A stretch of DNA of 64,000 bases from Theodoxus fluviatilis (Eukaryota; Mollusca; Gastropoda; Cycloneritida; Neritidae): the NCBI GenBank assembly GCA_034096865.1, contig JAWQFJ010025803.1:122366-186365 (forward strand), given 5' to 3'. A program made the translations under genes and the position numbers. The notes beneath the pieces are model-generated. The model had not been told where the DNA came from and searched no databases. It was given only the letters and a program-made list of their open reading frames with translations. Positions within the stretch are counted from its first letter, which is position 1. The number at the start of each line of letters is the position of its first letter. Positions 12,701 through 18,700 of the stretch are shown here, one piece after another.

Positions 12701-15700
12701 AGTTCTCGAATAGAAACGTGAATAACTATTGCTTGAAAATACGGGCAGTAAAGTGTAAAAGGGTTTTATTGGTCTTGTCTGTATTATGTAAATTATTTTT
12801 AGTTTATGCAAGTTAATTCCAAACACAACATTCCTGGCCACTACAAGAAAGCCTCCTAAAGAATGCATACTAGTTTTATCCAATTAGTCCAGCACTTTCT
12901 TTGCAGAAATTTCCTTGAATAGAATCACACTGACTTTCGTCGTTCGTCTTTGCTTGAACATGGCAATGCATATCCACCAACAGGAGATCTCCCTCATTAT
13001 TTGTTTTCGAGCTCATGCCCGGTAAGTTTGTGCAACAGGCACAGGCGATAAGTGCACTCCGGGAACGAAGGAGATGGGAACAACAGGTGGGGGAAAAAGA
13101 TGCGGAACAAACTAGCGGCATGGCGTCTGAGAACGCAGTGAAAGACGGGTTGTTTTACGCCAAGGTTGGCATGGAAGACTAGAAACGATCGCCTGAGAAG
13201 CTCGCCTTTGCACGGCATGCAGCCATCGAGAGCCAAACCCTCGCCGTAGGGGAGAGTAAACCAACAGTATGTGCAGGTCTTGTTTACCTGTTCAATTGCG
13301 AAGGTGTCTGTCTGAAAACATCATTAAACCAGACTGGAACGAAATCGATCCAAAAGCCTGCTAGGACGTCTTGTGCTTAACTTTTACCGTCGCGGTTGCA
13401 CATACGCACGTGAGCGGCGTGACTTTCTCATCAGCCGGCATGCTGTGGCCTTTTTGCCTCTCTGCAGACAACATGGTTCATTGAAACCTTCTTGATCGTG
13501 CATCGCACTGCAGGGTTTTTTGTTGTGGAGGATGGGTCGTCAACATGTTTATCTGCATAAATTTGTGACAGTTCCTTCAAAAAAAAAGATATGGGGAAGC
13601 CATAACCATCCCGGGGTACGTGCGGATCGGTAGGGGAAAAACGTCGACTGCTCCCTATCTGTTTCGGTTGTTTGGGAAAAGCGGTAGGTAGACGCTGAAA
13701 TTCCGATGCGAGAGAAGGTTCGTTTTACCTGCCTCCACTTGACGGAAATGAGTCAGTTGGGGCACCGTGCTCTTGATTTGCCTCTCTCTCAAAATAGCAG
13801 CTCTTTGAGGACAAGAGGGCTGCCCAAAATTGGAGCCCTGGGAAACGTTGAGACATTCCTTGATCAGAGCAGGCAGAGCAAAAATCAAGGCGTGATGCTG
13901 ATGGCGACGGAGATGAAAGCCCAATCATTGATGGAACTATTATACGGGTGTCTGGATGAAGGATGAATGGGTGAAGAAGGTTAATGAGGGGGAGAGGGAT
14001 CAGACATGGTGCGAGCCAAGAGACAAACACAGAAAGAGATAAGAGTCTCAGAGGCAGATGTGAAACTGAATAGCAGTTGAATGTAAAAACTATGAAGGGA
14101 AACGGAATCCCGACAGAATTAATACAAGGAGGCAGGAGAAGGGGATGGGGAGCAGGGAAGACGAGATACCATCTGACAGCACATATGCTCTTGCCATAGA
14201 TCTAATGTACATTGGCAGTGCTTTATTCGGGGGTGGGGGGATGGGGTGGGGTGGGAAAGCACAGGAGAAAGCTGCCCGTGTTGGCCTGGGTTTTTGTCAA
14301 TCACTGAAATACCACGGTGCTTCAGGACGCAGTTGCATACTGCCCCAGAAGCAGAATAGCTTGTGTATCGCATCTCCATTTGTCAAAAAAAGTTTCTGCA
14401 AGGACTGCTCTGTGCTGGAGCTCCCCCGGCTGCTGGCTGGAGTGCCATGCATAGCACGACCTCTTGCGCACGTCAGCTACGATGATTGGAAAACAGATTG
14501 AACTTGATGGCGCACGTAAATAAAGATACCGTGACTAGCCCTCACAGCGTGTTTGGAAAGATGATTGCCGTCATGTTCGTAACGACCGCGCGATGGGCAG
14601 GATTAATTGTGGCTGACATTCAAATCAGTGCGGTATCTGATATACTTGGTTTGTAGAACTTATATACTCCGTTGATCACCTTCAATAGACGCATACAACC
14701 TCGGACTAATAAGTTTTCGCTCGTCGTTGCTCTTTTTGACTCACATGCGAAGCAAAAGTGAGTCTATGTACTGAGCCGTGTCGTCCGTCCGTCCGGGCGT
14801 CCGGGCGTCCGTCCGGGCGTCCGTCCGGGCGTCCGTAAAAAACTTAAACGTTGGATTTTTCTCGGAGACTATTAAGTCTATCAACACCAAATGTGGCATG
14901 ATGGTGTATGATGACAAGGCCTCAAAAAACATACATAGTGACTTGACCTTGCTTCAAGGTCAAGGTCACAGGAGCCATAAATGTGGTCTCAAAAACAGTC
15001 ATTTTTCACATTTTCCCAATTTTCTCCCACGTTATTGAGAATGGCGACCTTAGCTACAAGTGGTATATAGGTCAAAGCAAGCCCTATCTTTTGATACCAG
15101 TTTGGTTGACCTTGCTTCAAGGTCAAGGTCACAGGAGCTCTTCAAAGTTGGATTGTATACATATTTTGAAGTGACCTTGACCCTGAACTATGGAAGATAA
15201 CTGTTTCAAACTTAATAATTATGTGGGGCACATGTTATACTTTCATCATGAGACACATTTGGTCACATATCATCAAGGTCAAGGTCACTTTGACCCTTAT
15301 GAAATGTGACCAAAATGAGGTAGTGAACCACTAAAAGTGACTATATCTCATGGTAGAAAGTGCCAATAAGCACCATTGTGCTTCCTATGTCTTGAATTAA
15401 CAGCTTTGTGTTGCATGACCTTGGATGACCTTGACCTTGGGTCAAGGTCACATGTTTTTTTTGGTAGGAAAAAAATGTGTAAAGCATTTCTTAGTGTATG
15501 ATGTCATTGCTAGGTTTAGTTGTTTGACCTTGACCTTGAAGGTCACCTGAAGGTCAAGGTCATATAAAGGTCAAGGTCAAGCATGTGAGTCGTATGGGCT
15601 TTGCCCTTTTTTGGGATAGATTCAGAGTTTTATTCTCGTCTATGAGTCGTATTATGTATTCATTGTTTTCGATATTTCTCCACTTACCTCTTATGAGGTA

Positions 15701-18700
15701 TTCTTTTAATTACACATTTTTGACTCACATGCGAAGCAAAAGTGAGTCTATGTACTCGCCCGTTTCGTCCGTCCGGTCCAGGCGTCCGGGCGTCCGAAAA
15801 CTTTAACGTTGGAATTTTCTCGGAGACTATTAAGTCTATCAATACCAAATGTGGCATGATGGTGTATTATGACAAGACCTCAAAAAACACACATAGTGAC
15901 TTAACCTTGCTTCAAGGTCAAGGTCGCAGGGGCCATAAATGTCGTCTAAAAAAGTCATTTTTCACATTTTCTCAATTTTCTCTGAAGTTTTTGAGATTGG
16001 ATACCTGACCTATATAGGGCAAAGTAATCCCTATCTTTTGATACCAGTTTGGTTGACCTTGCTTCAAGGTCACAGGAGCTCTTCAAAGTTGGATTGTATA
16101 CATATTTTGAAGTGACCTTAACCCTGAACTATGGAAGATAACTGTTTCGAACTTAATAATTATGTGGGGCACATGTTATACTTTAATCATGAGACACATT
16201 TGGTCACATATCATCAAGGTCAAGGTCACTTTGACCCTTATGAAATGTGACCAAAATGGGGTAGTGAACCACTAAAAGTGACCATATCTCATGGTAGAAA
16301 GTGCCAATAAGCACCATTGTGCTTCCTATGTCTTGAACTAACAGCTTTGTGTTGCATGACCTTGGATGACCTTGACCTTGGGTCAAGGTCACATGTATTT
16401 TGGTAGGAAAAAAGTGTAAAGCATTTCTTAGTGTATGATGTCGTTGGTAGGTTTAGTTGTTTGACCTTGACCTTGAAGGTCACCTGAAGGTCAAGGTCAT
16501 ATAAAGGTCAAGGTCAAGCATGTGAGTCGTATGGGCTTTGCCCTTCTTGTTAGACAAAGGTTCCACCGCTTGTACAAATTTGCGTCTCACAGGGCGTGTT
16601 GATTGTGGATAATCAGTAAATGACCATTCTGGATGATGAGTCCAAAGACGGACTCTTCAAAACAATCATTTGATCAGTATTTTGCCTTTAAAACAGGAGT
16701 TTACAAGTCTTGAATTGAGTAGTGGCTTGGAGCAGGATAGAGGTAATAGATTATTCAAGTTTCTCAAAGAAAGGTGTGGCAAGGCGCTTCGTGTATGCAA
16801 TGTATCACAAAGCCAGCAAGAAGATCGTGGGAATAATGGCAAAGGTTTCAACTGCAATGACATTGGAGGGCTCCAGGAAAATTAAGTCTTGGGCTGTGGC
16901 GATATAATAATGAAGTTGCGGTGAATTGACCTTCCTCACTACTGGCGCCTCATCATAGAATTCCACAGGAATTTCTTCAACTTGAAGGTCCTTGAAATAT
17001 TTGTTTTAAAAACGATCTTGTCGATAATTGCAAGGTAACGAGATATAGACGCCTCTTTCATTCATTCCTCTACTGCAGCATGCTTACCTTTGTTTTTGTC
17101 TCGGTGCTTCCAGGGGAGTACGAGCAGAAGTGCGTGGTCAGGTTGATGAACGACAGCATCTTCGAGGATGAGGAGCAGTTCCGCCTGGTGCTCGGCTCCC
17201 CCAGTACCGACACGGACATGCCTGCCACGGTGGGCAAGGCGAACGTCACTCTCATCAAGATCAAGGACATCGGAGACAGTGAGCATTGGTGGCCGTTTTG
17301 ATGCTTTGTGTCTTTTCTTACAGAATTTTGTGGAGCCTTGAAGGCTTGTAGTCATGGAACGTTCGAGTAACGTGTGTGTTGTTGATTTTCCTGAGATACA
17401 TGTTCTGTAGTTGAGGCTTAAACGAAACTTAGAAATTGTATGTACTTTTAGCTCACAAAAACGTATAGTATGATAGTGCTATGAATGAATGACTTTACAT
17501 CACAGAGCTCGGTAGTTGAATTACAAATGGCAAAACTCAAAAAGTACCTGCATTTTCTGTCAGTCAGTTAAATATTAAAGAGAGACTATTATTTGGTCAC
17601 TTGGCCAAAAGCCGCCATCCAAGTGCCATCAGCTCTGCTATCGATGATCCTCTCTGTTTCCACTCCTTTTGTCAATGGTCTTCCCACCACTCGACTGCCT
17701 CCTCCTTTCTGTCTTAGAGCCAAGCATCCGCCTGGAGCAGGACAAGTACATCATCAAGGAACCCATGTTTAAGGAGGAGACCACCATCCTCAGTTTGGGC
17801 GTGGTCAGAGAGGGAGACCTCACCCAGACCGTCGTGGTCACCATCAACACCAAGGACGGCTCGGCCGATGCCGGAAAGGATTACAACGGTGTCTTCAAAG
17901 GTACGGGAACGGCAGTGTTCTGCCGCTAGTGACTAAATCAAGACGCCGTTGATGTATGCCTTAAATTCAGATTTTTCTGAATGCTACATGATGTTTTGGG
18001 GAGTTGTGTGAATCAGGCTTTCCGTGCTGGTCCGGAATGCTCAGTAATTAGCGTGTCTTTTGGATACATACTTTCCTTTAGAGGAGCATGTGATACAGCT
18101 AGAAGATGAGCATGGCACATTTTCTTCCTTTTGTCAGGTTGTTTGACAGGCTGCAACAAATGTTTTGTTGATAATTTGTGAATTGACATAGGATTTATTG
18201 TATCGTGTTTAACATTGTGCGATTGCTATGACGACAGCGCATTCTGATATAATGGAGGTATTGAAACCTCGTCGCTGACTGATTTTTTTACAAACGGATT
18301 GTTATCCTTTTCCAATTAACGATTTTTAACAACGTTTGTTTTCCTCCATGTTTTTATGCCTCGATCATTTGTCTGTACACACGTATGTGTGTGTGCTTGG
18401 TGTGTTTTTTTAAACACATTTGAGGTTGCACTGAGCTATCTTTGTCGTGAGTTGGAGATGGCCACCAATACTGTGCTTTCTTTGCAGAGTTGGTGTTTGG
18501 CACGAACGTCTCCAGACAAGTCGTGGACATCGAGATTCTTTTTGACGGGGAGAAGGAGATGAGAGAAGTCTTCACTGTCCACCTCAAACTACGAAGTGGC
18601 GATGCCACTGTTAAGGTGAGGAGCTGTTTCCTATCGCCTGCCTTATCACACATTTCCCCTTTCGTTTACGCGCTGTTACCACGCAATGAGAATGAACATG

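Follow-up and report, generated by a model that had tools for sequence, protein, structure and literature searches.

A very abundant repeat rich in nuclear-receptor half-sites in the gastropod Theodoxus fluviatilis is probably a HINE that spreads its receptor words passively

HINEs, the non-autonomous Helentrons, have a published build of subterminal inverted repeats (subTIRs), a short inverted repeat (IR), a microsatellite, and a 3′ palindrome (PMC7492417, PMC4067079). Described systems include Cg_HINE of the Pacific oyster (PMC7492417), the modular HINE-type elements Pearl, CvA, DTC84, and MgE of bivalves (PMC7492417, PMC5139131), and DINE-1 and the mite element HINE-Mo (PMC4067079). Binding sites are carried by two further repeats: the Helitron-like ISX helitron of Drosophila miranda disperses sites for a chromatin regulator (PMC4384637), and the mouse retrotransposon SINE B1, an abundant repeat, carries an NR5A motif (PMC11102866). 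We analyzed a stretch of 64,000 nucleotides from the gastropod Theodoxus fluviatilis (contig JAWQFJ010025803.1 of assembly GCA_034096865.1, positions 122,366 to 186,365; hereafter, the window), in which an initial annotation had pointed to a dispersed repeat, left unnamed, with arrays of nuclear-receptor half-sites. By its anatomy the repeat is probably a HINE of about 850 bp, young and very abundant, whose receptor words (perfect matches to TCAAGGTCA) spread passively with the element and decay neutrally after insertion. Binding and function were demonstrated for the ISX helitron and binding was reported for SINE B1, whereas binding to the words described here is putative.

The window contains four copies of the repeat (A to D), all with the same order of modules: T-rich DNA, GACTCACATGC, 9 nt, GTGAGTC, a CGTC/GTCC microsatellite, a core, GCATGTGAGTC, and GGGCTTTGCCC. 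Copies A and B had been located well by the initial annotation, and we refined them to the limits given here (window positions).

14733 to 15613, + strand: HINE copy A, beginning with the 5′ TTTTT and ending 7 nt past the 3′ palindrome; limits based on flanks of 26 5′ ends and 41 3′ ends
14738 to 14764, + strand: 5′ end of copy A, with the 11-bp subTIR GACTCACATGC (14738 to 14748), a 9-nt spacer, and the inverted repeat GTGAGTC (14758 to 14764)
14782 to 14836, + strand: CGTC/GTCC microsatellite of copy A
14944 to 15582, + strand: core of copy A, whose 13 TCAAGGTCA words form clusters near 14944, 15107, 15273, 15426, and 15525 to 15580
15581 to 15591, + strand: 3′ subTIR of copy A, GCATGTGAGTC, the exact complement of the 5′ subTIR
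15596 to 15606, + strand: 3′ palindrome of copy A, GGGCTTTGCCC
15717 to 16550, + strand: HINE copy B, with 10 words, from a subfamily with a diverged 5′ third
16518 to 16528, + strand: 3′ subTIR of copy B
16533 to 16543, + strand: 3′ palindrome of copy B
34919 to 35771, − strand: HINE copy C, with 12 words
60900 to 61746, − strand: HINE copy D, with 12 words and one 6-nt word unit missing

We assign the repeat to the HINEs because this anatomy matches the published build even in how long the subTIR, IR, and spacer are and in the GTCC type of the microsatellite. HINEs have subTIRs of 11 to 15 bp at both ends; those found here (GACTCACATGC and GCATGTGAGTC) are 11 bp long, compared with 11 to 12 bp in Cg_HINE. 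A short IR beside the 5′ subTIR is a trait of DINE-1 and Cg_HINE, and in this repeat it is the 7-bp GTGAGTC after a 9-nt spacer, where the oyster element has 7 to 12 bp after 1 to 12 nt. Cg_HINE also has a 3′ subTIR, a palindrome, and a T-rich target, the last probable for our repeat as well, and several oyster elements carry a GTCC-type microsatellite (PMC7492417), which in our repeat lies in the left module. With DINE-1 and HINE-Mo the repeat has in common the subTIR, the 3′ stem-loop, and a putative preference for TT, and with DINE-1 additionally the IR and a very high copy number; receptor half-sites are not mentioned for these two elements, compared by description, in the excerpts of PMC4067079. 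At the 3′ end, GGGCTTTGCCC lies 7 to 8 nt from the terminus in 41 ends that were chosen for a palindrome next to the subTIR, and its predicted single-strand energy is no better than that of shuffles. HINEs insert into TT or T-rich sites and leave no target duplication. Both borders of the repeat are T-rich. At the 5′ border, TTTTT precedes the exact subTIR in 25 of 26 copies (TTTTT|GACTC), with TTATT in the remaining one; the majority letters of the 3′ border are GCCC-TTCTTGT|T, with the final T in 33 of 41 exact 3′ ends. The terminal Ts could belong to either host or element.

The core differs from those of the bivalve elements. Unlike Cg_HINE, compared by description rather than by sequence, the repeat has no array of satellite-like monomers (PMC7492417). 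A short motif does recur at successive steps of 163, 156, and 163 bp, which recalls the internal spacing of about 160 bp in Pearl, CvA, DTC84, and MgE (PMC7492417, PMC5139131). A Pearl-like satellite core was considered and rejected: identity at the first 163-bp step extends over about 33 bp, 20-bp bins away from the motif are 10 to 60% identical, and there are no tandem monomers of about 160 bp. Searches of viral and prokaryote collections returned no matches to the exact end and core patterns, and eight matches to shorter patterns, none of which continued as the element when inspected by eye. In the same collections there were at least 120 loci with TCAAGGTCAAGGTCA, and none among the matches listed had the 15-base end. 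Rfam gave no matches at gathering scores, and a protein search with an open frame of the window, made to place the host, gave none at E = 0.001. A literature search for TCACATGCGAAGC found nothing, one for TGACCTTGACCTT returned no paper on such repeats as judged by titles and the starts of abstracts (one oyster epigenetics paper was among them), and one for TCAAGGTCA together with transposable elements returned only a paper on grape. Among the matches listed for any three of the topics Helitron, nuclear receptor, transcription factor binding, and mollusk, no title was on point.

The words are concentrated in the repeat. The window has 48 matches to TCAAGGTCA, compared with 0.96 (standard deviation, 1.02) expected from shuffles, and 47 of these are inside the four copies, with a single stray at 3178. 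Thirteen words were counted in copy A, 10 in B, 12 in C, and 12 in D, whereas dinucleotide shuffles gave means of 0.012 to 0.024 and never more than one word (1,000 shuffles per copy). The shorter half-site AGGTCA occurs 21, 18, 21, and 20 times in A to D, respectively (0.5 to 0.6 expected per copy), in direct and inverted orientation and as overlapping pairs. Both the arrays in a dispersed repeat and this layout had been described by the initial annotation and are confirmed. Seven of the 13 nine-mers of copy A are an automatic by-product of an AAGGTC tandem. Among the 14 AGGTCA units outside these by-products, the preceding extension is TCA in six, CCA, GCA, and TGA in two each, and TAA and TAT in one each. 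It had also been claimed that the words stay intact in all four copies. Most of them do, but relative to the consensus of 13 words copy B is short of three and copies C and D of one each; whole 6-nt units are absent from B and D. Overall divergence among A, C, and D is merely 0.6 to 1.1%, so the intactness of words in these copies carries little information.

To determine abundance, we searched the 965-Mb assembly from which the window comes, scoring ends at up to three mismatches and using reversed patterns as controls. The initial annotation had left it conditional whether the family is genome-wide, and it is: we found 18,277 5′ ends (9,094 and 9,183 by strand) and 17,998 3′ ends, the latter defined by 3′ subTIR plus palindrome, with no match to either reversed control. 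TCAAGGTCAAGGTCA occurs 56,100 times in the genome, and its reversed pattern 22 times. The word TCAAGGTCA itself occurs 223,452 times, compared with 6,862 for the reversed pattern and 7,366 expected from length and equal base use. This excess amounts to 11.9 words per 5′ end, and full-length copies carry a mean of 11.6 (range, 7 to 13; n = 42). Because the two figures match, about 97% of the genome's perfect TCAAGGTCA words can be attributed to one family, a share derived from totals and not from copy-by-copy assignment. If every copy were full length, the family would make up 1.6% of the genome. The suggestion that the repeat scatters receptor sites thus stands with respect to the dispersal of words, while their binding by receptors is putative. 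If a single element does supply nearly all perfect sites, it will have to be taken into account whenever targets of ERR (estrogen-related receptor) or of FTZ-F1 are studied in this animal.

We then asked whether the words are conserved, using an alignment of 65 complete or partial copies, which remained from 70 hits after removal of five that scored below 200. Twenty stretches were chosen by an exact 5′ end alone; the rest came from the window and from tiles or loci around word hits in the first contigs, which introduces a mild bias toward intact words. CpG sites and the microsatellite were excluded from substitution counts. Private substitutions, i.e., those seen in one copy only, were as frequent in words (35/5,506) as elsewhere (203/33,260; ratio, 1.04; P = 0.78) and therefore give no sign of conservation by the host. 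Decay after insertion is probably neutral, words included, and no host-level keeping of sites is visible. Variants shared by two or more copies behaved differently, with 7 in 105 word columns versus 103 in 611 other columns (ratio, 0.40; P = 0.005; 0.010 under a mask-shift null). With private variants as a control for mutability, the odds ratio was 0.39 (P = 0.03) for the whole element. The initial annotation had named words mutating as fast as the rest of the element as part of the outcome that would speak against its reading; private substitutions fit that part, whereas shared variants are depleted in words. The raw substitution rate is also lower in words (0.0133 versus 0.0256), a gap that arises mostly from shared subfamily variants and so is not evidence of conservation copy by copy. 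For the same reason we discarded a halved substitution rate in words seen in the first 43 hits (context-matched ratio, 0.47), which the split into private and shared variants among the 65 traced to the shared ones.

The depletion of shared variants weakly suggests constraint on words in source elements, which would agree with use by the element itself and also with a structural role. Several results weigh against it. In the 3′ part alone the odds ratio of shared to private variants was 0.41 (P = 0.07), and in the 5′ part alone shared variants (1/15 versus 45/225) did not differ significantly (P = 0.32). The depletion also fades as the threshold is raised to three (P = 0.075), four (P = 0.16), or five copies (P = 0.34). 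The 35 private substitutions in words are above the 28.7 expected from sequence context, and deletions are commoner in words (9/420 versus 15/2,816). Within the four window copies, a stratified test of word conservation was negative (P = 0.31 and 0.49), as was a test of the 9-mers (P = 0.27); a Fisher test on 7-mers (P = 0.025) was set aside because it ignores the diverged 5′ third of copy B. That third is 9.4% diverged, compared with 1.4% for the rest. Both parts were sufficiently covered in 50 aligned copies, of which 15, including copy B, had a 5′ third 7.7 to 12.6% from consensus and a remainder only 1.2 to 3.7% from it, and the other 35 were within 3% in both parts. The family may exchange 5′ modules, for example by template switching or conversion.

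Folding offers another view of the words. Predicted single-strand DNA folds of the copies were more stable than shuffles, with z scores of −12.1 (A), −10.1 (B), −8.5 (C), and −8.0 (D) against 20 shuffles each; a version of copy A with slightly extended limits gave −15. Of the 133 word bases of copy A, 113 are predicted to pair, and for 82 of these the partner lies in another word. Scrambling the words of this copy costs 38 kcal/mol, compared with 21 kcal/mol for an equal number of other bases, and the words were the costlier part in each of the four copies. The word-scrambled fold nevertheless stays well below shuffles, which means that much of the folding does not depend on the words. When the 35 substitutions of copy B were placed on the predicted fold, 14 fell at unpaired sites, 5 kept a pair, 16 broke a pair, and none was compensated on both sides. 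Outside the words, shared variants occupied 60 of 408 paired and 43 of 203 unpaired columns. Structure is thus a live rival to receptor binding as a role for the words, one based on predicted folds and without support from covariation.

We also looked for a possible source of mobilization. Helitron_like_N has 18 matches in the genome, and the flanks of seven loci were partly examined. At one of them (contig C10001, positions 187175 to 196511), a left part of the HINE (model positions 3 to 393) and a right part (360 to 858) flank about 8.5 kb that include an intact open frame of 2,268 amino acids, two pieces of which match Helitron_like_N, a PIF1 helicase, and OTU. OTU proteases are among the genes of Helentrons, and an endonuclease is expected of them (PMC4067079). 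At both joins the parts have a word-bearing overlap of 30 nt. The Rep-helicase frame is antisense to the HINE ends and has the 3′ word module upstream of it. Possible readings of this locus are a Helentron that has HINE ends, a nested insertion, and a capture. We favored it at first as a plain autonomous partner and then downgraded it. Contigs C15793 and C7576 leave the C10001-type left sequence at the same point and continue alike, yet differently from C10001; contig C306 is rearranged at the left join; and on contig C930 the left join recurs at 98.6%, the DNA beyond it being different, and the right part was not found in positions 57800 to 61400 of that contig. In the single Rep frame scanned, that of C10001, Pfam gave no hit to the Helentron endonuclease, and the locus is at most a candidate autonomous partner. 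An ordinary HINE copy lies near the match on contig C605, and the stretches examined on contig C2402 had no HINE-type ends.

From knowledge of the family, a non-coding HINE would be mobilized by a Helentron Rep-helicase made elsewhere in the genome, which would nick its ends, and rolling-circle copying would carry it into T-rich sites. Its core of about 12 words, direct and inverted and mutually pairing in the predicted single-strand fold, would multiply with it, a passive amplification that could yield the roughly 217,000 perfect ERR/NR5A-type half-sites above the control count. Inserted copies would then decay neutrally, words included. In lineages that still transpose, the words might be kept either by a receptor (ERR or FTZ-F1) that aids expression or opening of the element or by a service of the stems in single-strand transposition.

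Each of these two roles has evidence on both sides. ERR uses the same word as NR5A2. The words are perfect copies of the monomer consensus TCAAGG(C/T)CA that NR5A2 recognizes while contacting the TCA extension (PMC11102866), and 6 of the 14 non-tandem AGGTCA units of copy A have that extension in full. Receptors are probably at hand: the genome has 47 matches to zf-C4 domains, an ERR-like DNA-binding domain is encoded over two exons of contig C17939 (91% over residues 1 to 35 and 73% over 26 to 73 of a human ERR domain used as query), and both ERR and FTZ-F1 are on record for Lottia and Biomphalaria (PMC4388693). Together with the depletion of shared variants and the word module upstream of the C10001 frame, these observations are consistent with a transposon driven by receptors. 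In germ line or embryo, ERR or an NR5A receptor would bind the clusters and open or transcribe either the element or an autonomous partner that shares its end modules, and the words would be kept by selection among source elements. We regard this as doubtful, given weak shared-variant statistics, the antisense frame, and the unproven partnership. The alternative that the words are structural only, with AAGGTC units grown by slippage and inverted duplication, kept as hairpins for rolling-circle replication, and resembling receptor sites by chance, is a reasonable possibility that we would still not bet on. The pairing of word bases with one another, the loss of whole 6-nt units in B and D, and the lower share of variants in paired non-word columns argue for it; the pair-breaking and uncompensated substitutions of copy B and the persistence of the fold after scrambling argue against it, and hairpins need no such exact sequence.

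It is very improbable that the host retains many of the copies for use as ERR/NR5A enhancers. The scale of dispersal would allow it, and the ISX helitron (PMC4384637) and Nr5a2 with SINE B1 (PMC11102866) are precedents, but private substitutions are not reduced in words, although a few co-opted copies would escape a sample of 65. A fuller version of the receptor proposal is that of a nuclear-receptor-dependent rolling-circle transposon, in which HINE/Helentron sources would keep arrays of ERR/FTZ-F1 monomer sites because binding drives germ-line expression or access, with the element holding about 97% of perfect TCAAGGTCA words. We think this unlikely. If true, the element would serve these receptors both as chief sink and as chief reservoir of sites. 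The young copies, some 18,000 with natural variation in their words, offer a ready means to test whether a transposon gains from receptor sites. The interpretation in the initial annotation is, as a whole, partly supported.

Neighboring copies tend to share orientation. The following counts are among the matches listed, which comprise 100 5′ ends (zero mismatches) and 100 3′ ends, the first of each kind, on contigs C1 to C40. Neighboring ends on a contig had the same orientation in 69 of 74 5′ pairs and 71 of 81 3′ pairs, and after merging into 142 copies (102 on the + strand and 40 on the −, compared with 9,094 and 9,183 5′ ends in the genome), 104 of 116 pairs were concordant (P = 2e-19 if pairs are independent). 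Concordance was 72/76 at less than 10 kb, 28/33 at 10 to 40 kb, and 4/7 beyond. Exceptions inside runs occurred on C28 and C5, and orientation switched on C25 (27 to 46 kb) and C33 (49 to 67 kb). The window copies fit this pattern, with A and B on the + strand and C and D on the −. When 34 copies, most of them on three contigs, were compared by BLAST over flanks of 400 bp, one segment was repeated besides flanks physically common to adjacent copies. Local AT skew differed slightly, at −0.027 around 30 + copies and +0.019 around 4 − copies. A repeat intended as an orientation control had 2,128 matches, too sparse to use. The pattern might arise from insertion at replication forks on one strand, from local hopping, or from a regional strand preference. 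If confirmed with controls, the runs could be a record, readable from sequence, of strand-specific and perhaps replication-coupled insertion of a rolling-circle element.

The window has several other features. An open frame of 618 amino acids at 51176 to 53032 (− strand) matches a Mutator-like transposase (PF20700; E = 1.4e-67). A dispersed repeat of 106 bp, possibly a SINE, is present at 4295 to 4400 and 43267 to 43372 with 90% identity, and a 27-nt piece of it, the orientation control above, has 2,128 matches in the genome at up to two mismatches. Nested inverted repeats with 97% identical arms (42102 to 42177 with 42785 to 42860, and 42401 to 42551 with 42592 to 42742) are perhaps a hairpin-type transposon, and a 34-bp minisatellite of about 24 copies occupies 44472 to 45281.

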